From positions 992,001 through 1,056,000 of the forward strand of contig NC_072815.1 of NCBI RefSeq assembly GCF_003013715.1: a stretch of 64,000 nt of DNA, read 5' to 3'. The notes beneath the pieces were generated by a model. It made no database searches, was not told the DNA's origin, and saw only the letters and a program-made list of their open reading frames with translations. Of this stretch, positions 25,147 through 63,818 are shown in pieces. This DNA comes from Candidozyma auris. Its lineage: Eukaryota; Ascomycota; Pichiomycetes; Serinales; Metschnikowiaceae. The translations under genes were made by a program, and so were the position numbers. Numbering within the stretch: the stretch's first letter is position 1; each line of letters opens with the position of its first letter.

Positions 25147-25286
25147 TGGCCGCAGTCCCAGATCTTTTTTTTTCTGTTTCCCTCTCTTTATCGTTATCCC
25201 GGTTTAACCTGTCACTCCTTATTTCCTAGCGATCAATCCCTGCCCCCGGCAATTACGTTCCTTTCAATCGGTATGTACTAAGATTT

Positions 25287-25350
25287 TTGAGTTGGCCGTT
25301 GAGTTGGCCATTGAGTTGTGGCTATTGAGTGAGCCATTGAGTAGAATTGG
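25287..25350 (+). repeat. Short degenerate tandem repeat, 12-14 bp unit
   Basis: About five consecutive units beginning TTGAG: TTGAGTTGGCCG, TTGAGTTGGCCA, TTGAGTTGTGGCTA, TTGAGTGAGCCA, then a decayed copy. It lies just after the putative 5' splice site upstream of the SUN gene. No function is evident. Confidence 0.7.
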
Positions 25351-25738
25351 AAGAACCCTTACGGAGATATTAGGAGGACATTCGTCGCCATAGGCAAAAT
25401 ACAGCGTCGTTTCAGCAGTGCCAGAGAATTAGATGGGGTCATTCATCCAGAATCTGTTGGTCAGCTTCAATTCGTGTTTTGGGCTAGATAATGGTGAAAC
25501 GCTACAGACACTACACTGGTGCGTCCCCTCAGTTGGTTCAACAACGCACACCTTTCGAACGGGTGACCCGAGTGCTTCTTCCTGACGGATGACCGTAAGC
25601 AAACAACAACAACGACACTTTGCAAATCGTTTTGTGTTTTGTGTTGTGTGTGTGTTTCTGTTGCCTGTGTTATGAGAGGGTGCCTACGGCGCCAAGGACA
25701 AGGTTGTGTGGTCTCGCGGCTGCCTGCCCAGGCGCAAA

Positions 25739-25754
25739 GTGGCCTCGCGGCCAC
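25739..25754. repeat. GC-rich perfect hairpin/palindrome upstream of the SUN gene
   Basis: GTGGCCTCGCGGCCAC forms a 6-bp stem with a TCGC loop. A related CTCGCGGCTGC copy is 26 bp upstream, and the element CCTGCCCAGGCG is at 25723-25734. CCTGCCCAGGCA recurs upstream of the neighbouring permease at 29992-30003, which may indicate a shared regulator. Confidence 0.45.
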
Positions 25755-25887
25755 GGTGTAGTCTAAAAGCCAGGCCGGGTGCTTCTGTGGCAAATTGGCG
25801 TGTCGTACTGAGGTCTTACTCAGGCAATTGACATGGCTTTAGCTTACTTCAGCCACTAGACTCGAATACTTGGGGCTTCTTTCGGGA

Positions 25888-25936
25888 ACCAGCACTTTCG
25901 CACCCGCTCTCTTTGCAGTTGCAACCCAGCGGCTGG
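25888..25936. promoter_or_regulatory. Cluster of CCAGC elements (Ace2/Swi5-type) upstream of the SUN gene
   Basis: ACCAGC at 25888-25893 and a palindromic CCAGCGGCTGG at 25926-25936. CCAGC is the core recognised by the daughter-cell regulators Ace2/Swi5 in yeasts, which control cell-separation genes. A SUN-family gene fits such control, but the sites are short and would be inside the putative intron if that model is right. Confidence 0.3.
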
Positions 25937-26474
25937 CTCCTGCGACGGTTTGGAAACATCACCCCCTCTGGCGCGAAACACGCTTTTTTTCTGCCCACTG
26001 GACGCTTGTGCTCGCTTTTTTCTGGCTTTTTTTCCTGCCATCTGCTACCGCGCCCCGGTCTCTGCAGGCACTTTCTGCTGGACAACGTTCTTTTTCGGCA
26101 GACGCCTTGCCCTTCATGTCGGGTGCGCAGCGTTTGCGCATCTTTTGCTGCGTGTTTTGTTTACAGTCGCGGATTAGTTTGGGTGCAAAAAAAAACAGGC
26201 AACGGCTCCTTGCCGACTATGAGGGAACGAACCTTCAGACGGCAGCCGTATTGTCCCAGCTATAGCCTGCGACTTTTGTCTCATAACGCAAGGTTCATGT
26301 TGTCTGTGTCCCGCACCTTGCTATCTCGTGGCGTGGCCTCGTTTGCGCACCTTCTCGTGTTTTAAGCCTACACATCTTCCTTTGCATCAAGCCTATCTAT
26401 TTCTACCACTACTACAACTCAACCTTCAGCCAACTCACCCCAGTCTCTCCTTAACATCATACTAACAGCTAGCA

Positions 26475-48263: not shown

Positions 48264-50855
48264 ATGGATTCCAACGACGGCCTTGTTGCCACGAGGCAAC
48301 GAAGAGCCAATGCTGGCTCTCGCTTAAAACAACTCATTGAACTTGAAGAGGCCTCCTCGGGTGTTCAGCAGACTTTCCTCACTGAGGAGGACGAGGATGT
48401 TCATCTACTATTTCAAGAGGACGAAAACGACGCTGAGTTCGAGGAGGAGGAGGAGGAAGAAGAAGAAGAAGAAGAAGGGGAGGACGAGGGAGAAGGAGGT
48501 GAGGAGGGCAAGGAAAACGATGATGCTGCCACTGATGATCCACGAAAGGAAGCTGCGATGCTCTTGGACAATGAGCAGTCTGATGCTGAAGCCAATCCTG
48601 ATGAAATGCTCTCAGATTCGGATCTATCTGTGTCTGAAGACGACGATAGCGAAGGTGAAAGAGAGCTTCAAAGGGAAGAGCGGGCAAAGAAGAGAAAGAA
48701 GAAGCAAACAATTATACCTGCCATCAAGAAGCGTACCACAACAACAACACCACAACCCAAGCAGCCTTCTAAACCACTATCCAGCATGCTACAGTATGGT
48801 GAGCGCCGGTCATCATCGAGAAAATCTGCTGTTAAAAATAAAGAAGACTTGCTACAGAAGCTCAAGGCTGATGAGACGAGAAGGGCAGGACTTACACCGA
48901 TCAAGCGGGTCAAGGAAAGGGAACCAACGCAGGAAGAGAGATTAGCTCAGGCACAGGAAACCGAAAAAGAAAATACTTTGTCTTTGAATGCGTTCTTGGA
49001 ACAAGAAGTCAAGAAGAAGGAGCGCCAGAAACTAATGTTCCAGCAGAAAAGACCAAAGCTTCGCAACGTCATTCGTCTAGTGTCCAAGGCAACATTTGTC
49101 ACTCCACTTGAGGAAATAGAGGATGCAAGACACGTTCAAGATATGTTTGAAAAGAAGCGTCGTGGGCGCAGGAGAAAAAACGTACAAGAAGAGCCCGATG
49201 TCAAACGTCCTGGCGACGTAGACACTGAGCTTCCGTATTACAAGCAAGAGATGGCAGAAAAGGAGAGGCTCGAAGCCATTCGCTTGGAAGAGAAGCGTAA
49301 GCTAGAAGAGGCGCGAGCAGAACGAAGGAGACGTCTCGAACATGAGCGTGAGGAGAGGAAACGAAAGCTTGAAGAGGAAAGAGAGGCTCGCCGTATTCTC
49401 AAGGAGAAACGTCTTAAGGAGTTTGAAAACATTGATGCTACGGACCCCAATTTCTCGGCCGAATCTTTGCGCCTTAAAGGTGAGATAAGTTCGTTAGAGG
49501 AGCAAGATAGAGAAGCCGAGGAAATGCACAGGGCCGAATACGGGGATGCAGAGCACGACAATGATCACAATATCGAAGATGACAACGGTATTAAAAAAGA
49601 CAGTACCGCTGATACCTCTTTGAAACCTCATGGGATGGTAAATTCAATTGATGAAGTAAGAATTTCGAGGACGCAAGACAACACTAAGCGCGTTGATGAA
49701 TCAAAAGAGGAGGTTGATGAGAAAGGCATGAGTGCCGAACAAAGCTCTGACAAACAAGACGATTCTATGGATGTGGATGAAAGCCTTGGAGAATTAAATT
49801 CAGCAAAGGAGAGCGCTGAAATAATCTCAGACGACAAAGCTACGGAAGCAAGCAGTGAAAATCCTGACGATATACAGATGAAGCTGGATAAAGACGCTGA
49901 TGAAAAAACCAAAGGCCAAGGGAAAGAGACCTCTCCAAACAGCGCGATTGAAAGGGACGAAGCGAAGGACGATGATGGGAAGGATGAGGTAAAGGATTCG
50001 TCTCAGGACATTGAGGTTGGCGAGAAGATTAAGATTGAGAAAAAAGTAACGTTCTCCGAAGACGTGGGGGAAAAAGATTCTAATGTGCCCGAACAGTCAG
50101 TGAAGGAAGAGCCCAGTACAGGGGTGAGGAGTCCAACAGAGGAGAAGCCTTTGCCGGAGACCAACCCTCCCACTGAGATCCTTCATAAGCCTCGCAGTGA
50201 CGGCGAAGTTTTTGAGGGCCCGGTTCAGTACGTTTCAAGGAATTATATCATTCTATTGGATTTTGACGATGAAGATAGGTACTGGAAACTTCCGGAGACA
50301 AAGATGAAGATTGCACTTTTCGGAGAGGAAAGTCTCCTCAGCGCCTCAAGGAGGTTCAGAGATGTGAAAACGATTCTTCGAAGCACCACGAGGAACGAGA
50401 ATCCTTATGCCACAACGAAGGACGAGAAGGAAGACGAGCTTTTCAAGCCAGTGTCTGAGATCACAGAGGAAAGTCCTATGTTTGACGACCTAAAGAGGCT
50501 TCGCAGGCTTGGAGTTCGGGTGGAAGACGAAGAAGAGGAAGAGGAAGAAACAAAGGAAGAGGAGAATGTGGTGCATATCAACACCGAAGCGCCTACAGGT
50601 CTCTATCTTCCAAATGGCAACAAAAAGATCTGTCTCATATCCGGCAAAGAGGTGCGCTACTTCGATCCCGGCACAGGTGTTCCATACGACAGTGTGGATG
50701 ACTACAAGGTGATCAAGAGTATTGAGGCCGGTAATATTCCGTGGTACAGCATTCCAAGAGATCAGAACACGTATGGGGCTGTTGAGATCTACTTAAATAA
50801 CCGTGAGGGAACCCGGCATGCCAAGGGCGTGCCCGAAGGGTTCGACGGGTGCTGA
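48264..50855 (+). CDS. VPS72: SWR1 complex subunit, H2A.Z-binding YL1 protein
   Basis: Vps72/Swc2 binds H2A.Z-H2B and targets SWR1 to nucleosome-free DNA. 863 residues (S. cerevisiae 795). The N-terminal YL1 motif ATRQRRANAGSRLKQLIE (9-26) precedes a very acidic H2A.Z-binding stretch with a run of Glu (about 59-75). A basic DNA-binding middle and long Arg/Glu coiled coils follow. After a disordered acidic linker, the YL1-C domain begins near residue 785 (KKICLISGKEVRYFDPGTG) and the protein ends in GVPEGFDGC. It converges with HCH1, with only 32 bp between stop codons. Confidence 0.93.
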   Translation: MDSNDGLVATRQRRANAGSRLKQLIELEEASSGVQQTFLTEEDEDVHLLFQEDENDAEFEEEEEEEEEEEEGEDEGEGGEEGKENDDAATDDPRKEAAMLLDNEQSDAEANPDEMLSDSDLSVSEDDDSEGERELQREERAKKRKKKQTIIPAIKKRTTTTTPQPKQPSKPLSSMLQYGERRSSSRKSAVKNKEDLLQKLKADETRRAGLTPIKRVKEREPTQEERLAQAQETEKENTLSLNAFLEQEVKKKERQKLMFQQKRPKLRNVIRLVSKATFVTPLEEIEDARHVQDMFEKKRRGRRRKNVQEEPDVKRPGDVDTELPYYKQEMAEKERLEAIRLEEKRKLEEARAERRRRLEHEREERKRKLEEEREARRILKEKRLKEFENIDATDPNFSAESLRLKGEISSLEEQDREAEEMHRAEYGDAEHDNDHNIEDDNGIKKDSTADTSLKPHGMVNSIDEVRISRTQDNTKRVDESKEEVDEKGMSAEQSSDKQDDSMDVDESLGELNSAKESAEIISDDKATEASSENPDDIQMKLDKDADEKTKGQGKETSPNSAIERDEAKDDDGKDEVKDSSQDIEVGEKIKIEKKVTFSEDVGEKDSNVPEQSVKEEPSTGVRSPTEEKPLPETNPPTEILHKPRSDGEVFEGPVQYVSRNYIILLDFDDEDRYWKLPETKMKIALFGEESLLSASRRFRDVKTILRSTTRNENPYATTKDEKEDELFKPVSEITEESPMFDDLKRLRRLGVRVEDEEEEEEETKEEENVVHINTEAPTGLYLPNGNKKICLISGKEVRYFDPGTGVPYDSVDDYKVIKSIEAGNIPWYSIPRDQNTYGAVEIYLNNREGTRHAKGVPEGFDGC

Positions 50856-50887
50856 AAGAAGTCTCTGTGTATAATGTAATGCAAAAT

Positions 50888-51381
50888 CTAATGACCTGTG
50901 GAGTGTTGTACGTCCTTTTCATGGGCGTCGATCAAATCAGCCTGGAACTTCACGAGCTTGGCCTTGATCAAAGGTACCAAGTGCTTTTTGATATGGGAGG
51001 CATTGTCACCTTCCACGCCAAAAACGTACTCATCGTCGTCTTGGTCATGGAAGAACTCATCCAAAGCGACAGAGCCAGTGAAGGAGCTCTCTTCTTCGTC
51101 CTTCTTGGTACCTTCGACGGCAAATCGGAGCTTCATGTCGTAAATACACAAAACCTTGCCCTTCCTCTGGGTGACATCACAGTCACCCGACACCGTGGTC
51201 ACTTCAGTGACCTTAAGCAAGTATGCATCGTCTTCAAAAGTGGTGTTCACCACCTTTTCACTGAGATAGTCCTTTGTCCAAGGAAGACAGTTTTTGTCGA
51301 CCCAATGCCTGGAGTTAGCGAGAGCTTCCGGAGATATCAGATAAATTCGACATACCAGTTGTTAGGGTTGTGGACAACCAT
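50888..51381 (-). CDS. HCH1: Hsp90 co-chaperone Hch1 (Aha1 N-domain homolog), two exons
   Basis: Hch1 binds the Hsp90 middle domain and modulates its ATPase. CDS complement(join(50888..51308, 51356..51381)), 148 residues (S. cerevisiae 153). Exon 1 encodes MVVHNPNN plus two bases of a Trp codon. Splicing yields NPNNWHWVDKNCLPWTKDYL, the diagnostic Aha1/Hch1 start. Exon 2 then has VTTVSGDCDVTQRKGKVLCI. Only the N-terminal Aha1-type domain is present: the frame ends about 20 residues after the domain, and no Aha1 C-domain follows before VPS72. A recurrent motif copy lies about 40 bp upstream (51422-51432). Confidence 0.92.
51309..51355 (-). other. HCH1: Intron of HCH1 (47 nt)
   Basis: Minus strand: GTATGT at 51355, branch-like GCTAAC, 3' TCCAG ending at 51309. 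The branch adenosine is only six bases from the final G. Removing the intron restores the codon for Trp9 in the family-invariant NPNNWHWVDKN segment. Confidence 0.92.
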
Positions 51382-52743
51382 TTCAAGACAACAGAGAGTG
51401 AGATTTGATGGAACCTGATTATTTTCGCAGCATTATAGCACACTAGTCGCGGACCTGGGGAAAGAATCTTCTAGAGTCGAGAGAAGCAGGACAACGAGAA
51501 CTGGTCCGTGAGGAGAGGAATAGATAGGTGATTTTTTTGAATTTGAGCAGGAAGGGAACACTTATAGAAAAAGATAGGAGCAGGAGGTGGAAGTGAGGTA
51601 TACAGAGCCTTGTACTCATTCTTTTATGTCTGATATGGGTTTTAATGGACATCTTCAAATACCCCGTTAAGAGGCTCAAACTAAACCTTTTTTAAGCCAT
51701 ATTTTCCTAGATTTGGTCGAAGAGTCTCAAATCATCTAACAAGTCAATTGAAAGAGCCTGTTTCCTTTAGAGTGTCATGAGAGCGAGCCTGAGACATTTT
51801 GCAGCCATGATACAGTAGTGATGCCTGAATAGCACAAGAACGGAGAGGGAAGATTTGTTTCCTCAATAATGAGAATTTAAAAATGAGAGAATTGAAGATT
51901 TGGAAGAAATATCAGGTGAAAGATTGCAGTGGTCGTCTACTTGTCGAGTCCTTAGGAGTTTGCGAGGTCCTCAGTGTGCTGTTCCAGAAGAATGAAGAGG
52001 AGAAAGAACCAGGTAGTGGTGTAGTGATAGCGTTGAAGTACAAGAAATCACTCTCATTTATTTCGCCTTACACGTGAACTCTAAAGACCAGACCAAACAA
52101 CGAGATGAATCATCTAAATATCTGGACTACTCATAAAGCGCTAAGTAAATTGTCTGGGTCAAGATGATCAGTGGCTATGTCATAGCGAAATATGATAGAA
52201 TGGAACAATCTAGCTTGTGAATGGATATCTGTGACTGGTAGCTACAACATTCAAGTCGATGGACTTGAGGCTAGGATCATCACCAAATGAAACTTTTGCA
52301 GCCATTCATGCACACTAGGTAGGGGCTGCAACATACGATAAATCAATAGATAAGAAAAAAATGAGTAATTGTCTATTAAAAAAAGGATAGAATAAGTGAA
52401 ATATGAAGCATCCTGCCCTGTTAGCTATTTCTGGAGCTCAAGCTGTATCTCATTTTTGCTTCTTTGGATACTTCGCCCAAGCCACGCTCGTGCTCTTCAA
52501 TGAGGACAAAAGGAATAAGATTTTCCTTTCATTCAGCAAAACCTGTGGAGCTCTGATTAGCTCTGATCAGCCCCTTTTTTAAAAAACACCCAAGAGATAC
52601 CAATAGATTTAAAGGTTTATTTTTATCTCTGGAGGCTCTACCCACTGCAATTGACAGGGCGATACAGGCGCGGATTTGTTGACATATTTTTTTTTCTTCG
52701 CTTCTACTGCTTCCTCCAGTCTGTCTCTATCGTCCAGTGGTTC
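51382..52743. other. Long divergent intergenic region HCH1 / Mpv17-family gene
   Basis: 1362 bases, the longest gap outside the SUN/permease area. It carries three minus-oriented recurrent motif copies: TTTTCGCAGCA at 51422, TTTTGCAGCCAT at 51797 and TTTTGCAGCCAT at 52294. Related sequence GGGGCTGCAACA is at 52322. A 64-codon frame (51883-52077) has no recognisable domain. I could not identify a structured RNA here. Confidence 0.4.
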
Positions 52744-53367
52744 ATGCCCGACAGTATAGAGCTTGCAGACTTGAAGCATAAACCATTTTTCGACTATGAT
52801 AAGCCCGAAGGCCTGGCTCGCTTGACTCCTGCGGCCAGACGCAAGATATGGCTCCATATCTTTGTGGAGACGCTCGCTTCAGTGATAATATATTCGACCT
52901 ACACTCGCCTTGTGCTGTACTACCTGTTTTTGGCTCCTACGCTCCTTGGAGCCTCTACTGCGGCGTTGGCCCAGTCTATGAACCAGCTCTACAAGGGCAG
53001 GCTTTCGAATTCTAGATTACTAAAGTTCGTTCTTTGGGGGTGCATCAATGGGTGCTTTACCGCGCTATGGATCGACACTCTTGTTGCTAGAGTTGAATCG
53101 GTTTTTTACAGAATCTTGATAGACCAGTTGGTGGGGGCACCTTCGTTTCAATTGATCTTCCATTTGCTTGGCAAAGTATGGGACGTCGCTGAGCCTGGAC
53201 AGCCATCGCCTAGCATCTCCACATTTTTGATGGCTTTAAGCTATTCATACTGCTACTGGCCCTTCGTGTCAATAGCAATGTTTGTGTTTATTCCTCCTCC
53301 GTTGATGTTCATCAGCAATTGCATTGCTAACTTGATATGGAATGTGATCCTCAGCAGGATCTCTTGA
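52744..53367 (+). CDS. Mpv17/PMP22-family membrane protein
   Basis: 207 residues from the first ATG of the frame. Hydrophobic segments alternate with charged loops. The C-terminal half has the family pattern: a LIDQLVGAPSFQLIF-type motif, then YWPFVSIAMFVFIPPPLMF, then NLIWNVILSRIS, corresponding to the WPxxQxxNFxxVP...WNxxLS signature. Members sit in mitochondrial inner or peroxisomal membranes. The best S. cerevisiae analogs are Sym1 and YOR292C; I cannot tell which. The sequence upstream of the ATG stays open with a TTG and a polypyrimidine-AG, so an additional spliced first exon is possible but unsupported. It converges with DBP9 (36 bp). Confidence 0.75.
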   Translation: MPDSIELADLKHKPFFDYDKPEGLARLTPAARRKIWLHIFVETLASVIIYSTYTRLVLYYLFLAPTLLGASTAALAQSMNQLYKGRLSNSRLLKFVLWGCINGCFTALWIDTLVARVESVFYRILIDQLVGAPSFQLIFHLLGKVWDVAEPGQPSPSISTFLMALSYSYCYWPFVSIAMFVFIPPPLMFISNCIANLIWNVILSRIS

Positions 53368-53403
53368 ATTCAATGTAATGACTCCTACGCCATCCGTATA
53401 AAT

Positions 53404-55116
53404 TTATCTGATTCTCTTCAATGGGTCCGACTTGCGCCCACCTTTCCTCTTCTTTCCTCCTTTCCTCACTCTATTTTTTGTGAATGGGATAAACCCAAGA
53501 TCTTTCTTGGATCCTGCTCTGGCGCTGGCCGGAAGTAAGTATTCAGGCACTCTCTTCAACTGCGACTGGACCCTGCTCGGGTGCAACTCCTTATCGTGTC
53601 TCAAGCTGGCCAAATCCTGAGGGTTCTCTTCAAAGAATCTCTTTAATTTGTCGGAATTTAGCAACTCATTCTTCAACTCTGCAATACGTGCTTCTCTTAT
53701 GGCGACGCCGGTAACCGCTCTAAATGCGTCCTCTGATCTATACCTGAACCCTTCCACTTGTTTCATGTCAAATTGGTAGGGATTGATCTCAAGTCCGTTT
53801 TTCTGTTGTTGCTTAATGATTTTCTTGAGAACTTTTTCGTCCTTCTTGGCCGAAGGCAAGGTTGCAACTCTATGCTTGCCAACCTCAGACTCAGGGATGA
53901 CAAATGACAATGCCATACCAGCCTTGCCCGCTCTAGCTGTTCTTCCTATACGGTGCACATATGCCCTGGAAGTTGTAGGCAAATCGAAATTGAGTACACA
54001 AGCAACGTTTCTAAAATCAACGCCTCGAGAAACACCGTACTCTTTATCTTTCTTCGATTTCGATTTCTTGGATGAGCCTTCTTTCACGTTATGAGAATCC
54101 TCAACCTGCTCATCTCCTTCATCTTCCTCCACAGCGAAATCACTAGTCTCATCTGTAGCTATCAACAAGGAGTACACGTTCTTGTTGAATTCTTCCACGA
54201 TATGCAAACGAGAGTTCACGGGTAACTCACTATTCAAAATGCAACAACGGATACCAAACTGCTCCAAAAACAATTTCAATCTGTACCCACGCTCTATGGA
54301 GTTGACAAATATGAGAGATTTTCCCTTGATCAAATTCAACTTGTATATGACGTATGTTAGAAGAAACTTATCAAACTCAGTTGTTCGTGCGTAATATTGG
54401 ACCAATTTTTGTCCAGCAGATTCGTCTTCATTGAGTTTGAGTACCGCCGGCTTGGAGCAAAAACGGCTCTTGAGTTCGTTGAGGTCATCGTTGATCGTGG
54501 CAGACATCATAAATGTCTGCAAGTTCGTCTTGACGGGCAAAAATGTCTCGAGCTGTTCCAAATCTTCCATATACCCGTAGGAAAGAATCAAGTCGACCTC
54601 GTCAATTACCAAATGTCTTGTCTTGGAGAGGTCGATCAACTTGGAGTTGACATTCTCCTGGAGAACTTGGATGAGCTTACCTGGAGTGGCCACCAAAATG
54701 TCTGGCTTATTTGTAAGCAACGACCGAAGTACTTGGTCGGAAACGTTGTTTGAAAGGTTGACGACGGTCACTTTCTGGTTACTATACACCAAGAGCTTTT
54801 CTGTGAACTGGGCTACCTGGTCGGCAAGCTCTCTCGTGGGAACCAACACGATGCTTTTGACACACTTTTCCTGTTCTGCAGCTAAAAGATTTTGCAAGAT
54901 GGGAATCATATAGGCAGCGGTTTTACCCGAACCAGTGCTGGCTTTGGCAATAATGTCTCTGCGCTCTTCAAGTGCTAGGGGGATGGCACTGGATTGGATG
55001 AGAGTCGGGTTCTTGAAACCCAAGTGGTCCACGGCCTGGATGATTCGAGGATCAAGATTGAGGGAGTCCCACTGACAATCTTCGTCCACGTAGGCGGCTT
55101 CGGCAGCTTTGTTCAT
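53404..55116 (-). CDS. DBP9: Nucleolar DEAD-box ATP-dependent RNA helicase Dbp9
   Basis: Dbp9 acts in 60S pre-ribosome assembly. 570 residues from the ATG at 55116 (S. cerevisiae 594). The Q-motif region is followed by Walker A ASTGSGKT at 59-66, PTRELADQV (93-), DEVD instead of DEAD at 172-175 (characteristic of Dbp9), SAT, and motif [12 protein letters not shown]. An acidic/Lys-rich insert ([10 protein letters not shown] through KSKSKKDKE) sits before motif V, another Dbp9 trait. The C-terminus is Lys/Arg/Gly-rich. AAAATTTT at 55229-55236, about 115 bp upstream, resembles the RRPE element of ribosome-biogenesis promoters. The frame upstream of 55116 has no ATG. Confidence 0.94.
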
Positions 55117-55374
55117 TGGCTTGAGATGGATCAAAGGGAAGAGACTAAAATTCAGGCGATGCTCATCTTGACAAAATGAGAAGTGCGGCACGAAAGAGAG
55201 CAAATACAGAACGTCTCTGATCGGGCTCAAAATTTTGGGGCATGTTTTTCTTCCTAAAATATTTGCAAAACTTCTATATTTGTTGCTTTTAACAATAGTT
55301 CATGGTTCATAGTCAGATTTGGCATTAAAAAATACTTCCTATATACTATAGTATACCAATTTCAATTCATATCG

Positions 55375-55447
55375 GGGCGTGTGGCGTAGTTGGTAGCGCG
55401 TCTGCCTTGCAAGCAGAAGGTCACCGGTTCGACTCCGGTCTCGTCCA
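55375..55447 (+). tRNA. tA(UGC): tRNA-Ala (anticodon TGC)
   Basis: 73-base cloverleaf without intron. The acceptor GGGCGTG pairs with CTCGTCC, including the G3-U70 wobble that specifies alanine, and the discriminator is A. The D-arm is GCGT/CGCG. The anticodon stem is TCTGC/GCAGA with loop CTTGCAA, anticodon at 55408-55410. The T-arm is ACCGG/CCGGT around TTCGACT. Internal A box (TGGCGTAGTTGG) and B box (GGTTCGACTCC) are intact. A short T5 run at 55451 and a longer T run near 55487 could terminate Pol III. Confidence 0.98.
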
Positions 55448-55557
55448 TACTTTTTGCAACCGTTTCCCTACTCTTAAGTTTTAAGATTTTTTTTTATTAT
55501 TTTTGTAAGATGTTTCAGGGCTCTACTACTGATGTTCGATGCTATTGCATTACTATG

Positions 55558-57231
55558 CTATGAATTATGCTTTGGCTCGCTTTCTACTCTCGAGCGCCCA
55601 GATGGGTCCCACTGTTGAACTGTTACGGTGGAGGCAGGTGTGCTTGCACGTCCCTCGTCTGACGTCGAGGTGGGTCCCACGGTTGACTGTGAGCGGGCCA
55701 TCATCATGGGTTGAGCACGGTCACGTCCAATAAAGTCGGAAGTACCCGCTGCTTCATTTGCCGCATTGGCGGCCTTCTCTGTGATACCGGCCTTGGTGAA
55801 CTTGGAATTGAGTTCGTCAAGATCATCTCTGTGACCCCTCCGATTACTTGCAAACGAAAATCGTGTGAGCTGTCTTGGAAGGTTGATGGTCGAAATAGAC
55901 TGTCTTCTCACAGTTGGCAGCGTCTGTGATTCGAGGTCTCTTTCTCTTTCCTTTGATCGTTTCGTTGGCTGTCGAGACAACGTCCTGCGAAGATGCTCAG
56001 CAAGAAACTCAGCTCCACTCTCATCTTCATCTTCATCATGGTTCGATGTATCGTAGTAATCCTCGCTGCTATATTTCCCTGATGCAATGGATCTTTCTCG
56101 GTCACGAGGACTCTCCATGCCATAAACGGGAAAAACGTTTGCTGGAGACTTGTGGGACTTCTTCCTGCGAAGTGACCGCTGAGAGCGAGTCGTGGGTTGT
56201 CTATATAATGCATGGACAGGCTCCTTTGGCTCAACCCCGAGTTTGGAGCTATTAAGTGAATCAGAATCACCTTTTTCCTCGCGCGAAGCCCTTCTCATTT
56301 CTTCGAGTTCGTTTTCCTCCTCAGCTTCTTCTTCGTCGTGAGGCATTACCCGCACCACTCTGGAGTCCTGGTTCAACTCAGGCTGCTCGTCTCTCATCTC
56401 GTACAGTGGCAAGTGAAGCTTACGCTGGTCTCTTTCCACGACATACAAGTGAAGATACCACGGGATCACCAAACCAAAGAAGGCACCACCAATGATATTG
56501 CCTAGGGTAGCCGGTAGCAAAACTTTCCACGCCACAGTACCCACAGAAACATGGCCGTGGTTTATTAGGCCGATAATCACAACAAACATATCGGCAACAG
56601 TGTGACTGAAACCAAGAGACACAAATGTGAAGATTGGAAGTAGCATCATCAAGAACTTGACATGCAAAGGCTTAGCCATAAGCTGAAGGTATATGGCCAA
56701 GCAAACGAAGAAATTACCTGCCATTCCCTTGATGAGTGTTTCATGGAAGGCAGGAGCTGCCTTTTGATCGAGGATCAAACGGGACCCTTCGATCATCGCA
56801 GGTGTGGCTGACACCTTCGAGTAATGCGAGATGATGTAGCAAACGAATATATTACCCACTAAATTAAACCACCAGCTCACGAACCATGATATTAGAAGAT
56901 CTAGCACTGTAACGGCTCTGCGAGCTAAACCCACCAGGAAAAATAAGATGTTGGAGTTGAATAGATCAACACCCATGATGACGACGTAAAAAAGACCAAT
57001 AGGATACATGAGACCTTGTAGTAGTAGAACAAAACCTGGATTTGTTTTCCACGTTTCTGGACACTCAGATACTATCATCACATGAAGCATTCCTCCCGAA
57101 GTAAAGAGCAAGCCACCCATAAATGAGTTTATTATGAGTGTATCGAGAGAAAGTCTTGCTTTTTTCATCGCTGTGGCCACCACCGCCAAAGCGGTCTCGT
57201 GGGTGGTCAAATACAGCGTCTCATCGATCAT
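55558..57231 (-). CDS. Formate/nitrite transporter (FNT) family membrane protein
   Basis: 557 residues. The first ~275 form a six-helix FNT-type channel domain: MKKARLSLDTLIINSFMGGLLF, then a conserved LFNSNILFF segment of the half-helix break, NLVGNIFVCY, KGMAGNFFVCLAIYL, and NIIGGAFFG (segments given in part). S. cerevisiae has a single homolog (YHL008C, 627 residues) with the same layout. The C-terminal ~280 residues are cytosolic, disordered and Arg/Ser/Glu-rich. They include RRAS, RRQS and RSQRS sites that match basophilic (PKA-like) kinase consensus. The transported anion is unknown. The gene is separated from tRNA-Ala by 110 bp. Confidence 0.88.
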   Translation of the reverse strand: MIDETLYLTTHETALAVVATAMKKARLSLDTLIINSFMGGLLFTSGGMLHVMIVSECPETWKTNPGFVLLLQGLMYPIGLFYVVIMGVDLFNSNILFFLVGLARRAVTVLDLLISWFVSWWFNLVGNIFVCYIISHYSKVSATPAMIEGSRLILDQKAAPAFHETLIKGMAGNFFVCLAIYLQLMAKPLHVKFLMMLLPIFTFVSLGFSHTVADMFVVIIGLINHGHVSVGTVAWKVLLPATLGNIIGGAFFGLVIPWYLHLYVVERDQRKLHLPLYEMRDEQPELNQDSRVVRVMPHDEEEAEEENELEEMRRASREEKGDSDSLNSSKLGVEPKEPVHALYRQPTTRSQRSLRRKKSHKSPANVFPVYGMESPRDRERSIASGKYSSEDYYDTSNHDEDEDESGAEFLAEHLRRTLSRQPTKRSKERERDLESQTLPTVRRQSISTINLPRQLTRFSFASNRRGHRDDLDELNSKFTKAGITEKAANAANEAAGTSDFIGRDRAQPMMMARSQSTVGPTSTSDEGRASTPASTVTVQQWDPSGRSRVESEPKHNS

Positions 57232-57657
57232 CTCTCAAATGAGGTGATGAGTGAGATTTCAGTCTATAAATATCCGGCCAACTGAGGTCACAAAATGTCG
57301 ATGCTGATAAAGGTGGGGAGTGAAGGGGGACCTTCTAAAGTGTATGCAAAACAACAATAGGCGAATCGAGAGAAAAAAGCTCGGATACGTTATCTTTCGA
57401 TCCATAGTGAGGTGATGATGAGATTCGCGCATTCACCAAGTATGGCTGCAAAAGCAGTGATTGCGAATTGGAAGCAAGCTAGTGAAGCTGGTGAAATTAG
57501 CAGAGCCAGCGTCAACATGCAAAACGGCCGCCATTTGTCTAGTGAGTTTATAACGCCATGAAACGGCTGATACTAAGCCTTGAGGGGAGCGCAAGCTTCC
57601 AAACGTTAAGAAAAGAGGTCGCTAGATCAGCGTCATACGATACAGGTTCGCTTGCTC
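57232..57657. promoter_or_regulatory. FNT-gene promoter / RAD18 3' flank
   Basis: 426 bases without a gene. One recurrent motif copy, ATGGCTGCAAAAG, is at 57442-57454. A repeated GAGGTGATGATGAGAT-like phrase occurs near 57239-57254 and 57409-57424. Confidence 0.45.
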
Positions 57658-58863
57658 TTATTGGGGAATGAAGAGAGTACTCTGAGAGAAATCAAACTCA
57701 GCATTCTCCTCCTTGACTCCAACTTGCTCTGCTTCCTCCTTCTTCTTTTCATCGATTTTTTCATTTGTAGTTTGCTCAACAAACTCCTTGGTATTGTGAC
57801 TCCCATCGCCACTCTCGGTGCCCACATCCATCTCTATACCCTCTTTGTCGGCCTTTTTCTTGTTAGTCGCCCTTGCCGCGCGGATCAACCGCTTATACGT
57901 ATTTCTATTCTTCTCAAGCCAAAGTCCCACGGGGAAGTCTTTATCTGTTATGGACTTGTGACTCAAGGAGTCAGCAAACAAGCCACCAGAAGTAGCAGCC
58001 GATGAAAAGGCCGCGTGTGACTTTTCCCACTGCATAAGTTTCTGTCTAAGTGCCAAGTCGCTTTCTGGGTGTGAACTGTCCAGGTTCGAGTTGTGCAACA
58101 CGTAGTAATGGTTGTACCTGAGCTCGAGCTGAGACCGGGTTCCTGACGTCGGGAGCTTCAACTGACTTAATTTTTCTTTCAACTTGGGCGTCGCAAGGGA
58201 GCCAAAGTCTATTTTGGGGATTTTCTTGATTTCATGGTGGTGCTTCTCGGGTTGCGAAAAGTAGAACGACGAGTGGTTCACATCCTGGCGCTTGCGGGGC
58301 TGGAAGAACGACGAGATCCCTTTCAGTCTTTTTGGTGCCGTTGACACTCTTGGAGGAGGCACTTTGGTGCTTTTACCGTTAAGGCAATCGTCCAAATGGC
58401 TTCTTTGGAGAAAGTCAGCACTCATGCTCTGGCTACACACGGGACACTGCACTAACTCTGGATTTCCATTGGTGGGATTTACTTGTGGACTTTCTTCGTC
58501 TGGAACCTCGATAATCTCCAAATCTGCCTCCTTGGTTTCTTCCACATGTGGTGTTTGCTCTTCACTCTTTAGTTGCTCAAGAAGATCTGGTCGTAGCCTT
58601 TCATAGCATAGCACAATCTCCTCCAAGAGTATATTCCTCTTTAAATTGCTCTCGAATTGCTCTGTTTTACAAAGAGGACACAGACTTTCGGCCATTAGAT
58701 GCTGGCGAATGCAGTGGGAGCAGAATGTGTGGTTGCACGAGGTGATCACTGGCGCCTTGAGAAAGTCCTTACAAATGAGACACCGCTGGAGAGAGTCCAA
58801 CTGGGCAAGCTTCGGTAGCTTTGTCGCTTTCCAGTCTGACGGGTCCGAGTGCTTGTGGCTCAT
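57658..58863 (-). CDS. RAD18: RING E3 ubiquitin ligase for PCNA, post-replication repair
   Basis: Rad18 with Rad6 monoubiquitinates PCNA at stalled forks. 401 residues (S. cerevisiae 487). The RING finger is at about 28-66 (CLICKDFLKAPVITSCNHTF to CPLC), followed by a conserved helix. A UBZ4-type zinc finger is at about 138-160 (VQCPVCSQSMSADFLQRSHLDDC, given in part). The SAP domain is near 225-260 (LKEKLSQLKLPTSGTRSQLEL), with a NSNLDSSHP segment and then the Rad6-binding region. The C-tail is acidic and ends FIPQ. SEC12 lies on the same strand just to the left. Confidence 0.94.
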   Translation of the reverse strand: MSHKHSDPSDWKATKLPKLAQLDSLQRCLICKDFLKAPVITSCNHTFCSHCIRQHLMAESLCPLCKTEQFESNLKRNILLEEIVLCYERLRPDLLEQLKSEEQTPHVEETKEADLEIIEVPDEESPQVNPTNGNPELVQCPVCSQSMSADFLQRSHLDDCLNGKSTKVPPPRVSTAPKRLKGISSFFQPRKRQDVNHSSFYFSQPEKHHHEIKKIPKIDFGSLATPKLKEKLSQLKLPTSGTRSQLELRYNHYYVLHNSNLDSSHPESDLALRQKLMQWEKSHAAFSSAATSGGLFADSLSHKSITDKDFPVGLWLEKNRNTYKRLIRAARATNKKKADKEGIEMDVGTESGDGSHNTKEFVEQTTNEKIDEKKKEEAEQVGVKEENAEFDFSQSTLFIPQ

Positions 58864-59075
58864 GACAAAGTCGGATCTATATATATATTTTTGAAGGAGG
58901 TCTGACTCGTCTTTCCTTGGTGACCGAAGGCGTTTTTCACATCGCGTATCGCGAACCGATCTTTACTAAGTCAGATCCACCGGTGGCCAATGCAGGAGAT
59001 AACCACACTAAGTGGATTCCATCCCGTTGGCTATTCTATTTATGACATTATGCAAAGGGCGATGTGCCTCTTGGA

Positions 59076-61955
59076 TTAAAGTTCGTCATGTGCTGTTGTA
59101 GCGCTGGGTAATGAGGTAGTTGCAGATGTTGTGGAGGACAGTTTGGTGACTTCTGAGGACTCTACAGAGTTGGTCACTGCAGATGAAGAAGTTGTAGGAG
59201 CTGAAGAAGTCGAGGGAGCTGAGGAAGTTGCAGTTGCAGGAGATTCAGAAGCAGTCTCCGAAGATGCACTCGACGAGGCACTTTCTGGGGACACTGAGGT
59301 ATCAGAATTCCTAGAGGTTGTAGAATCCGATTTAGCCTCAGATTTGGCAGGGGAGTCTGATGCTCTAGATGAAGCTTCTAAAGTGGCAGAAGACAGAGTC
59401 TCAAGGCTTGGCACTTGCGATTCACTGGACCCTTCAGTCACAGAAATTTTGGTATCTGATTTCTCCACTTCGACAGTCTCGGTGAAGTCTACTGTGTCTG
59501 TTGTCTCAGCAGCTGGCTCGGCGACTGACGCCTCTTCCTCAGATGAAAGGTCAAATTCTTGAGAAGTCAGTGCACTTTTTTCGTCGATCAAAGATGACGT
59601 GTCATTCTCCAAGAATGGAGTCGAATCATCCACCCAACGCTCATCAACAATTTCAGGCACCGACTCAGATGACGTGCTTGGACCTTCGACAAAAGTTGAA
59701 GACGATGTATGTTCTTTCGTCAAGCTAGTCGCACTGATGTCGGATTCTTCGTGAGTCGTTTCCGAAAAAAGCTCGGCAATAATACTCACAGACTCCACCG
59801 AGCTTAGCTGCTCTGATTTTGTTGACTCTGCTTGAGTCACCTCGGTACTGGGCTGCTCAACTGAACCGTTTGCAGCTGCTTCGAAAGCCGTGGTCTCCTC
59901 TGGTTCTACCGAAGAATAAGATGCAGAATTCTCATTTACCATCTCAGGCTCGACCTCAACAAAGACGTCACTCGAGGTTCGGATATCTTCGTTTGAAGTC
60001 GTCTCTTGCACTGACTGTGTAGACACATCAGAATCAGCGACATTCTGCTCTTCCGTAGTGAGAGATGAATTATCATCATCCTCAATGGAAGCAGAACTTT
60101 CCGAAAAGTTGTCAAGGTCCTTATCTGGAAAAACAGAGGATGCAGTCTGAGTAGCGAAGGAGGAGGCACCTTCACTTATAGTATCTATGATTTCACTGAT
60201 TTCAGATCCACCAACACTCTCAGTTGAATGACTCTCTTGAGCGTCCTCCAAAGTCACAGTCTCTGCAGACACCTTGAAACTTACATCTGTGTCAAGCTGC
60301 ACAGCCTCTTCAATAATGGAGCTTCTGTCAATTTCACCATCAACATTAGTGAGGTGGTCAACATCCTTGGTGACCTCCGACACAATATCATTGAGTGTGT
60401 CATTGGGGATGTTTGCAGTTGTTGCGGTCTCTGTTTCCACTAAATTCTCTGGGTTGTCTTCCCATGCACTCATTGTGAAGTACGGCTTGGTGTTCTCTTG
60501 GTCATCTGGCTTATCCTTGTTCATCTTCTCCTTGATTAAATCAATTCCATATGCTGACTTCTCCTTAAGAACTTCGTACCCAATTTTCCCGTAGATTTGC
60601 GCTTTATCAAGATACTCACTACCGTACTTCTGCGACAACTCAGCTGCCACTACACCGTATTCTTGAGCCTTGATCATGAAATTGCCTCCATGTTTTTTAG
60701 TGAGTTCGACGTAATGATCAATAGGGCCTATGTGCTGTTCGATCATGTCGATGTAAGGATCAAGCTGGCCGGCCTGAAGTCCTTGCTGCAAAATAACACC
60801 AGCAAAAATGACAAAAATAAACATTAGGAATTTGAAAAATGACCACATTAATGAGGAACCGGCTGCATAGTTAGGCGGGATGGGCATGACGTTCAAAGTT
60901 TGAGAAGCACTGCCGGTAGCTAATTTGGTGCCACTGGGTGAAAAACTCAAGCTTGTAATAGCAAACTGATGCAATTTGGGTATCGTCGAAAGGATTTTAA
61001 AGTCAGACAATCTAATTAATGTCACAGTAATATCATTATGGGCCACTGCAACAAGATTCTGCGCCAAAGAAATGTCCAATGCAACAACAATGGCATTCTT
61101 CTTCAAAATGCGGGCCTCGCTTATTACTTTGTGATTGGTGATGTCGTAGCGTAGGATCGCTGAACCTTTGCCTGATCTCAAAGAAGCAGTGATGACAACG
61201 GTATCGTTCTTGAAAAAGCGAACTTTGGACAAACTATACTTGGCCAAGATTTTTTGCGATTTTTTATCGGCTTTTTGTGAGGAAACTGACACCACGCTGC
61301 CGTCCCCATTGTTGATCACCTCCACTGAGGAAGAAGTAACTAAGCACAGAAACCTCCCTCCATCATGAGGGCTCACCTGAAGGTCTCTGATTTCGCCCGC
61401 ACTGGATGAACGAACCTTGGCCACCAACTCAAGAGAGTCTGGCCTATAAATATACACATCGGAAGGGTCCAGCGATGTCATGAAGGCACCAACCTCACTT
61501 TCAGGGGACAAGCTGATCAACTTTGGATAAGTGCCAATCGACTCAGCCAGAACAGTGTGGTCAAACTGCACTGCGTCCAAAAACTTCAAGTGCTCTTCTT
61601 CGGTGAAACCGTATTTTCTCAAGTTGTTGTTCACATTCATGTTTTTGATCAATGCAGATGATTGGTTGCAGCCAACAAAAATGGAGTGAGTGAACCCGTC
61701 GTCTCCCGAGGATCTCGTTGTCTCCACGCACATGGGAGAGTCTTCATTCTGAGGCAAAGTGATTTCTCTGTACTTCTGTAATCTTCTATTCTTGTCTGCA
61801 ACTTTTAGGCTGCACTTGACAGCGGTGATTTTGTTTGGAATGCCGTTTTTGCCCTCACCTCCGCCACCGACGGCCAAAACGGTCTTATTGTCGAGAAACT
61901 TGATGCCAAATATCGGGTATCCCGTATTCAATTCGGCGGCTCTTTTGGCGGACAT
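59076..61955 (-). CDS. SEC12: Sar1 guanine-nucleotide exchange factor Sec12, with long lumenal domain and HDEL
   Basis: Sec12 activates Sar1 to start COPII coat assembly at the ER. 959 residues. The cytosolic beta-propeller covers about 1-350. It contains the K-loop signature AVGGGGEGKNGIPNKI (30-45) known to bind potassium and Sar1, and typical WD-like repeats to LATGSASQTLNVMP. A single membrane helix is at about 367-388. The remaining ~570 residues are lumenal, extremely Ser/Thr/Glu-rich and probably O-mannosylated. The protein ends in HDEL, the ER retrieval signal. S. cerevisiae Sec12 is only 471 residues and Sed4 is about 1065. A TATA-type sequence lies at 62024-62031. Confidence 0.92.
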   Translation of the reverse strand: MSAKRAAELNTGYPIFGIKFLDNKTVLAVGGGGEGKNGIPNKITAVKCSLKVADKNRRLQKYREITLPQNEDSPMCVETTRSSGDDGFTHSIFVGCNQSSALIKNMNVNNNLRKYGFTEEEHLKFLDAVQFDHTVLAESIGTYPKLISLSPESEVGAFMTSLDPSDVYIYRPDSLELVAKVRSSSAGEIRDLQVSPHDGGRFLCLVTSSSVEVINNGDGSVVSVSSQKADKKSQKILAKYSLSKVRFFKNDTVVITASLRSGKGSAILRYDITNHKVISEARILKKNAIVVALDISLAQNLVAVAHNDITVTLIRLSDFKILSTIPKLHQFAITSLSFSPSGTKLATGSASQTLNVMPIPPNYAAGSSLMWSFFKFLMFIFVIFAGVILQQGLQAGQLDPYIDMIEQHIGPIDHYVELTKKHGGNFMIKAQEYGVVAAELSQKYGSEYLDKAQIYGKIGYEVLKEKSAYGIDLIKEKMNKDKPDDQENTKPYFTMSAWEDNPENLVETETATTANIPNDTLNDIVSEVTKDVDHLTNVDGEIDRSSIIEEAVQLDTDVSFKVSAETVTLEDAQESHSTESVGGSEISEIIDTISEGASSFATQTASSVFPDKDLDNFSESSASIEDDDNSSLTTEEQNVADSDVSTQSVQETTSNEDIRTSSDVFVEVEPEMVNENSASYSSVEPEETTAFEAAANGSVEQPSTEVTQAESTKSEQLSSVESVSIIAELFSETTHEESDISATSLTKEHTSSSTFVEGPSTSSESVPEIVDERWVDDSTPFLENDTSSLIDEKSALTSQEFDLSSEEEASVAEPAAETTDTVDFTETVEVEKSDTKISVTEGSSESQVPSLETLSSATLEASSRASDSPAKSEAKSDSTTSRNSDTSVSPESASSSASSETASESPATATSSAPSTSSAPTTSSSAVTNSVESSEVTKLSSTTSATTSLPSATTAHDEL

Positions 61956-62429: not shown

Positions 62430-63818
62430 ATGGAGGACATTGAAACAAAGCCGCTACTATCAGTATCATCTTCTGTGGTCCATGGATATGTGGGAAACAG
62501 AAGCATTGTGTTCCCTCTTCAGACGCTTGGATGGGATGTGGATGCTATCAACACCACTGACTTCCTGAATCATCCCGGCTACGGCAAATTCAAGGGACGC
62601 AAAGTTGAGCCTGAGAGACTAGAAGAGCTTTTTGACGGACTCAAGGACATTCAGGCGGACCAGTACAAGATGATGTTGGTGGGCTACTGCCCTACGTCCG
62701 ATCTGTTGGAAGTCATCTACAATCACATTGAGCAATTGAAGTCGGCTAACCCTGAGTCGGTGGTGGTGGTGGACCCTGTTCTTGGAGACAACGGTAAGCT
62801 CTACGTTTCAGCAGAATGCGTGCCCGTACATAAGAGGTTTTGGAGGAAAGGGCTTGTTGATTTGGCCACACCCAATCAGTTCGAGTTGGAGCTTCTCACT
62901 GGCATGAAGGTCGATAGTTGGCAAGCCGCTGCCCAAGCTCTTCGCATGGTTGATGCTTTATACGACGTTCCCAACGTTGTACTCCTGTCGGTGGTAATCA
63001 ATGGCGTCATGGCCGCTGTGGGGTACTCTCGTGAGTCGTATTTCTCCACTGAGGAACCTCTCAAGGAAAATAATCGCCCTAACACGAAGGATAGCCCGTC
63101 TTCCAAGGAATATACTCCACCCAAGAAGAATGCTTCACCTCTTCCTGAGGAGGATGGAACCTCCTTACCCAAGGAAAAGGAAGCCTCCTTACCCAAAGAG
63201 GACATGGGTAAGAAGGACCCAGGGTGTCTTAAAAAACCCATGAATGCGTACATTTTCTTTTGTATGGATCGGAGAAGGGCAAACCCCGATGTGAGATACA
63301 GTGCAAACATGTTAGGTGAAATGTGGAAAGCTGCCAGCCATGAAGAAATGAAGCCATTTGAGAAATTGGCCGCTGCTGACAGACATAGGTATTATAAGGC
63401 AAAAACTGAATGCCTGGGTGTATCTATAGTGGAGATTGACGAGATTGGCTGTTCCTTCAACGGGTGTGGAGATGTCTTCTCCGCCTTGTTGGCTCACGAG
63501 TTCTACGAGAACGACAAGAAGCTCACTGGAGAAGTGATTTCTTCTGTGATGGCCAAAATGAGCAAAATTCTTCGCATCAGCTACGAGTTGGAGAAGAGGA
63601 AGACAGGTAAGGAGCCTACCCACGTAAGGGACATTGCCCTTGTTGCCCTGCGCCATGTATTTACTGAGAGAGACGTCGGTGCCGAAAATGCACAACCCGA
63701 CATACACTCTTTCAAAATCAAATTGGAATCTGGCTTGGATGAAGAGCTAGCCGATGCTGTGAAAAGCGAAGAGATTTTGAAGGGCGTTGCTGGGATCAAA
63801 TTAGAACCCTCCGCCTGA
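62430..63818 (+). CDS. BUD16: Pyridoxal kinase (Bud16 type) with an inserted HMG-box domain
   Basis: Vitamin B6 kinase of the PfkB/ribokinase superfamily, 462 residues; S. cerevisiae Bud16 has 312. Kinase landmarks: SSSVVHGYVGNRSIVFPLQ (13-31), NHPGYGKFKG, VVVDPVLGDNGKLYVS (112-127), LATPNQFELELLTG (145-158) and the ATP-site/catalytic NGCGDVFSALL with Asp348. Between residues 204 and 328, inside the fold just before the GCGD motif, lies ~125 extra residues. They comprise a Pro/Lys/Glu-rich linker with SLPKE repeats, then a complete HMG box at about 266-327 (KKPMNAYIFFCMDRRRANP to DRHRYYKAK). The frame is continuous, with no splice signals. The C-terminal tail has IKLE, VKSE and IKLE, each fitting the SUMO consensus. 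Kinase identity is certain; the role of the insert is unknown. Confidence 0.92.
   Translation: MEDIETKPLLSVSSSVVHGYVGNRSIVFPLQTLGWDVDAINTTDFLNHPGYGKFKGRKVEPERLEELFDGLKDIQADQYKMMLVGYCPTSDLLEVIYNHIEQLKSANPESVVVVDPVLGDNGKLYVSAECVPVHKRFWRKGLVDLATPNQFELELLTGMKVDSWQAAAQALRMVDALYDVPNVVLLSVVINGVMAAVGYSRESYFSTEEPLKENNRPNTKDSPSSKEYTPPKKNASPLPEEDGTSLPKEKEASLPKEDMGKKDPGCLKKPMNAYIFFCMDRRRANPDVRYSANMLGEMWKAASHEEMKPFEKLAAADRHRYYKAKTECLGVSIVEIDEIGCSFNGCGDVFSALLAHEFYENDKKLTGEVISSVMAKMSKILRISYELEKRKTGKEPTHVRDIALVALRHVFTERDVGAENAQPDIHSFKIKLESGLDEELADAVKSEEILKGVAGIKLEPSA
63039..63413 (+). other. HMG-box insertion within the pyridoxal kinase coding sequence
   Basis: Residues 204-328 of the kinase. Near 63162-63206 the DNA has short in-frame repeats of the CCTTACCCAAAG type, coding SLPKE. 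The HMG box keeps the family's core residues: Pro270, Tyr274, Phe277, Arg281-283, Pro286, Gly296, Trp299, Lys300, Pro309, Phe310, Asp317 and Tyr321. It looks intact and under constraint. Confidence 0.88.

Follow-up and report, generated by a model that had tools for sequence, protein, structure and literature searches.

A Candidozyma auris pyridoxal kinase gene with an HMG box nested in its reading frame

Saccharomyces cerevisiae has, besides the pyridoxal kinase gene BUD16, a second paralog, BUD17. Deletion of bud16 leads to accumulation of pyridoxine (excerpts of PMC9513677). Excerpts of PMC3961173 further describe bud16 mutants as defective in thymidylate synthesis and prone to chromosome rearrangements, with chromosome damage in B6-kinase mutants of both yeast and flies. 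A large insert, of 618 bp, is described for the Plasmodium pyridoxal kinase in excerpts of PMC1890295. Here we analyse a 64,000-nucleotide stretch of the Candidozyma auris genome (NCBI RefSeq assembly GCF_003013715.1, contig NC_072815.1, positions 992,001 to 1,056,000 of the forward strand; hereafter the window), in which a single reading frame encodes a pyridoxal kinase interrupted by a linker and an HMG box.

A pyridoxal kinase in two halves

The gene has the following features, given in window coordinates:

62430..63818, + strand: whole open reading frame, 462 amino acids, genetic code 12; ATG at 62430, stop at 63816-63818
62430..63041, + strand: pyridoxal kinase part 1, residues 1-204, with DPVLGD and TPNQFELELLTG; from the TIGR00687 stretch 7-203, alignment and model
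63042..63209, + strand: linker of low complexity rich in Pro, Lys and Glu, residues 205-260; two SLPKE units and one PLPEE; predicted local distance difference test (pLDDT) mostly <50
63210..63413, + strand: HMG box with its NHP6-like KKDP lead-in, residues 261-328; matched by Pfam at residues 268-326, 63231-63407; 6 residues short in helices I and II
63414..63683, + strand: pyridoxal kinase part 2, residues 329-418, starting at the second hairpin strand; from alignment and model
63462..63473, + strand: residues 345-348, GCGD of the anion hole, including the catalytic Asp; both Gly and the Asp are invariant across the 63 bacterial rows
63681..63815, + strand: residues 418-462, C-terminal tail carrying psi-K-x-E three times (IKLE 430, VKSE 444, IKLE 456)

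As the first-pass annotation had described, the frame is uninterrupted, with no stop from the ATG at 62430 to 63816-63818. Under translation table 12, five CTG codons of the 462-residue kinase are read as serine. Serine at residue 46 restores the family motif FSNHPGYG in the alignment, and this code thus fits the kinase gene. A codon-usage model trained on 15 other open reading frames of the window gives frame 1 the top score in all four segments of the gene, linker and box included. The content of guanine plus cytosine (GC) is 46%.

By the features tested, the protein is a pyridoxal kinase. The NCBIfam pyridoxal kinase model TIGR00687 matches residues 7-203 with 169 bits (cut-off 144.5, E 1.4e-49), and solved structures that match the kinase part are those of sheep PDXK (E 5.6e-43) and human PDXK (E 5e-41). 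PF08543 scores 26.4 against a cut-off of 27 in hmmscan, and 27 in the genome search when neighbouring stretches are added. For an alignment with bacterial pyridoxal kinases, we selected 63 from among the best 80 of 418 loci on prokaryote contigs. The catalytic Asp of GxGD and the conserved ATP/Mg residues (S14, Y86, D115, D120, N149, E152, G345, G347 and D348) are the same in all 63 rows, and in the predicted structure a ribokinase-like fold spans both kinase halves. Family models, alignment and structure model agree that the kinase segments on either side of the insert are intact, as had been proposed from the letters alone. The earlier label of a Bud16-type pyridoxal kinase holds for the enzyme family; with two pyridoxal kinases in the genome, the protein may correspond to BUD16 or to BUD17.

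The second one was found by searching the genome (12.25 Mb, 7 contigs) for paralogs and HMG boxes. This paralog (G000:C1:624250, 321 amino acids) has no HMG box and shares 49% identity with the nested kinase over 155 residues of part 1 and 34% over 61 residues of part 2. With such a paralog making the cofactor, the kinase part of the nested protein could instead be catalytically weak or inactive and act as a sensor of pyridoxal or ATP within a DNA-binding chromatin protein. Ring contacts in the human enzyme are made by Gln11, Thr47 and Val231 (excerpts of PMC3412620), where the alignment places S13, P49 and N344, and the pyridoxal kinase model gives the nested kinase 169 bits compared to 215.9 for the paralog; both points favour a sensor. 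Nevertheless, S13, P49 and N344 are present in 5, 23 and 37 of the 63 bacterial homologs, respectively, and the catalytic Asp and the anion-hole glycines are retained. We consider a B6 sensor quite improbable.

The extra length sits where the first-pass annotation had placed it. From S187 to the first Gly of GxGD (G345), the protein has 157 residues compared to 31-43 (median 35) in the 63 bacterial rows and 41 in the paralog, an excess of about 114-126 residues over any bacterial row and of 116 over the paralog. In the alignment, this position is the turn between two hairpin strands. We take it to correspond to about residues 208-213 of the human enzyme, counted back from the catalytic Asp in the human sequence. 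These human residues are unmodelled in one crystal structure (excerpts of PMC3412620), and for this reason the loop from which the box hangs is probably loose. In the whole-protein structure model, residues 209-337 have a pLDDT below 50, so the model gives no placement of the box and neither favours nor disfavours the mutual influence of box and ATP site that the first-pass annotation had raised.

In viral contigs, searches with the kinase pair, with the box pair and with the NHP6-like protein found no relatives, and a 54-residue probe picked up two kinase loci, which were left out of every alignment. A first scan of prokaryote contigs gave no match.

The insert at the DNA level

The insert might be an intron, an alternative exon or an assembly fault, leaving a mature protein without it. 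Using an intron scan limited to GT[AG]NG[TAG] donors and [CT]AG acceptors, one in-frame splice that removes the insert can be drawn, with GTGAGT at 63031 as donor and TCTATAG, whose last base is 63429, as acceptor. Its donor and branch site are poor: the nearest branch-like site among those listed, TGCTGAC, lies 56 bases from the acceptor. Two candidate introns (window 3540-3333 and, read by eye, the NHP6 start codon) have GTATGT donors, and in them TACTAAC lies 13 bases from the end of the acceptor. The spliced product would also miss part of the second hairpin strand, and the stretch to be removed scores as coding and contains the HMG box match (E 3.9e-9). Based on these signals, splicing out of the insert is unlikely. 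As for an assembly fault, a search that skips simple repeats finds a single copy of the insert DNA in the window's own assembly, which is not an independent check. Overall, we regard a mature protein lacking the insert as highly improbable. Joining the same donor to AG at 63094, 63382 or 63388 breaks the frame, and these candidates were rejected. Further matches to the intron pattern in the window are found at 25271-26472 (+ strand) and from 36090 or 35648 to 34924 (- strand).

For a mobile-element origin we found no sign: there is no transposon mark, no second DNA copy of the insert and, within 63030-63430, no direct or inverted repeat of at least 12 bases. The linker (residues 205-260) has no Pfam match. 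It carries two copies of the SLPKE unit at a spacing of 24 bases, which hardly differ as DNA, with a looser SPLPEE upstream (window 63135-63206). This duplication, which is absent from the output of repeat-finding tools, is perhaps the result of slippage.

The HMG box and its possible role

The box matches Pfam HMG_box PF00505 at residues 268-326 with 37.3 bits (cut-off 25.4, E 3.9e-9); PF09011 stays just below its cut-off (21.2 versus 22.4 bits). Among solved structures, its match is NHP6A (E 5.9e-10). The NHP6-like protein of the genome is 41% identical to the box (E 4e-14); with the two further boxes that were found, E is 7e-5 and 0.003. By these comparisons it is the nearest relative of the box among the HMG boxes of the genome. 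The NHP6-like gene itself (locus L003, 1480-2020, - strand) has a start codon that is apparently split by an intron; by eye, the sequence reads ...AACAAA, GTATGT ... TACTAACAAACAG, TGTCTACAGAG.

The reading we put first, tentatively, is that of a working pyridoxal kinase with an NHP6-type box on a flexible linker that is DNA-bound and keeps part of the enzyme at chromatin, with the paralog elsewhere. One of two pyridoxal kinases would have gained the box in its hairpin loop and would be translated with it as one protein active as a kinase. The box would most likely bind DNA with little sequence preference, like NHP6, and hold part of the enzyme at chromatin, such that pyridoxal phosphate would be made in the nucleus. 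The insert-free paralog would serve the remaining cell. The benefit may be a local supply of cofactor, for instance to enzymes that feed thymidylate synthesis. Tethering to chromatin through the box, which the first-pass annotation had raised, is plausible because its nearest relative is NHP6-like and because the box has a net charge of +6 in a protein of net charge -13. A use for nuclear pyridoxal phosphate is conceivable, since bud16 mutants are impaired in thymidylate synthesis and have rearranged chromosomes.

Several observations weigh against a functional box. The first-pass annotation had called it complete: an HMG box above the Pfam cut-off is confirmed, but not its completeness, as 4 residues of helix I and 2 of helix II are absent by comparison with NHP6A, the HMGB1 B box and SRY. 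Of the 19 columns conserved in seven other boxes, 2 are deleted here (none in any of the seven) and 4 are changed; when all boxes are compared under equal rules, the nested box has lost 2-3 conserved columns. Conserved columns are kept at 13/17 and variable columns at 27/45, a difference that is not significant (p = 0.18). As to the three-helix, L-shaped HMG fold, the box modelled alone reaches a mean pLDDT of only 64, with three of five models at 40-47, and its best Foldseek E is 3.1e-3. The open frame is itself weak evidence for the box because the downstream kinase half needs the frame anyway. We accordingly do not accept it as showing that the box is under selection.

These points bear on the main rival, a passenger box. 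An NHP6-like piece would have entered a length-tolerant loop and would stay in frame only through the need of the kinase, with the box either no longer binding DNA or doing so without consequence, and the protein would be a plain pyridoxal kinase whose loop is bulky. In its favour are the helix I and II deletions seen in none of the seven other boxes, the lack of a significant shift of changes away from conserved columns, and a third-position GC of 0.456 in the box, below that of the two kinase parts (0.578 and 0.575). In addition, large inserts can be carried by pyridoxal kinases, as the 618-bp insert of the Plasmodium enzyme shows (excerpts of PMC1890295); by alignment, that insert lies in another part of the fold. 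On the other hand, changes at conserved columns (4/19, or 4-8 of 20-30 by the rule used for the others) fall inside the range of the seven other boxes (1-10 of 20-27), PF00505 is still well above its cut-off and the net charge of the box is retained. We hold a passenger box to be a real possibility, if somewhat doubtful.

The tail adds a lead. Its final 45 residues contain three psi-K-x-E motifs, IKLE, VKSE and IKLE (window 63717-63806), and we saw none in the tail of the paralog. The three motifs match the SUMO consensus. The 15 other open reading frames contain 9 [VIL]KxE motifs in 10,201 residues, or 0.04 expected per 45 residues; this count was made after the tail had been seen and serves as a lead, not as a test. 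SUMO-type motifs would suit a nuclear protein. A further-reaching form of the chromatin reading is a chromatin-bound, SUMO-controlled B6 kinase that makes pyridoxal phosphate at sites of DNA copying or transcription, its active site coupled to DNA contact. Such coupling could arise from the attachment of the box to the loop leading into the anion-hole segment. We judge this form unlikely.

If the box works, a cofactor-making enzyme has been wired to DNA through one domain insertion, and nuclear compartmentation of the pyridoxal phosphate supply becomes testable; it is the chromosome damage in B6-kinase mutants that prompts this question (excerpts of PMC3961173). The protein would also exemplify a DNA-binding domain nested inside a metabolic enzyme and not fused to its end.

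Finally, the open reading frames at window 48264-61955 encode a YL1 nuclear protein, a DEAD-box helicase, a formate/nitrite transporter, a RING and SAP protein (presumably Rad18-like) and a WD40-like endoplasmic reticulum protein ending in HDEL (presumably Sec12-type). We take the presence of two nuclear proteins near the kinase gene as chance. On the downstream side of the kinase lies a frame for a class 3 lipase (locus L001, 2984-4384), which extends past the end of the locus.

Comparison with known systems

The nested pyridoxal kinase and HMG box is real and unusual, and we found no description of it within the literature searched: among the open-licence matches listed, no title or beginning of an abstract mentions a fusion of the two. 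The Plasmodium falciparum pyridoxal kinase (PDB 6su9) likewise contains a large insert. Its extra residues, however, precede the DPV motif and do not lie in the hairpin (paralog residues 104-265 align to 313-467 of the chain), and it is not known to carry an HMG box. With the chromatin proteins NHP6 and HMGB, the C. auris protein has in common an HMG box with a KKDP lead-in; here the box is nested in an enzyme, 6 residues short and below the PF09011 cut-off. With pyridoxal kinases of the PDXK, PdxY and yeast Bud16 type (TIGR00687), it shares the fold, the catalytic Asp, the anion hole and motifs throughout the kinase, and it is set apart from them by the 157-residue stretch between S187 and G345 and by its acidic tail with SUMO-type motifs.
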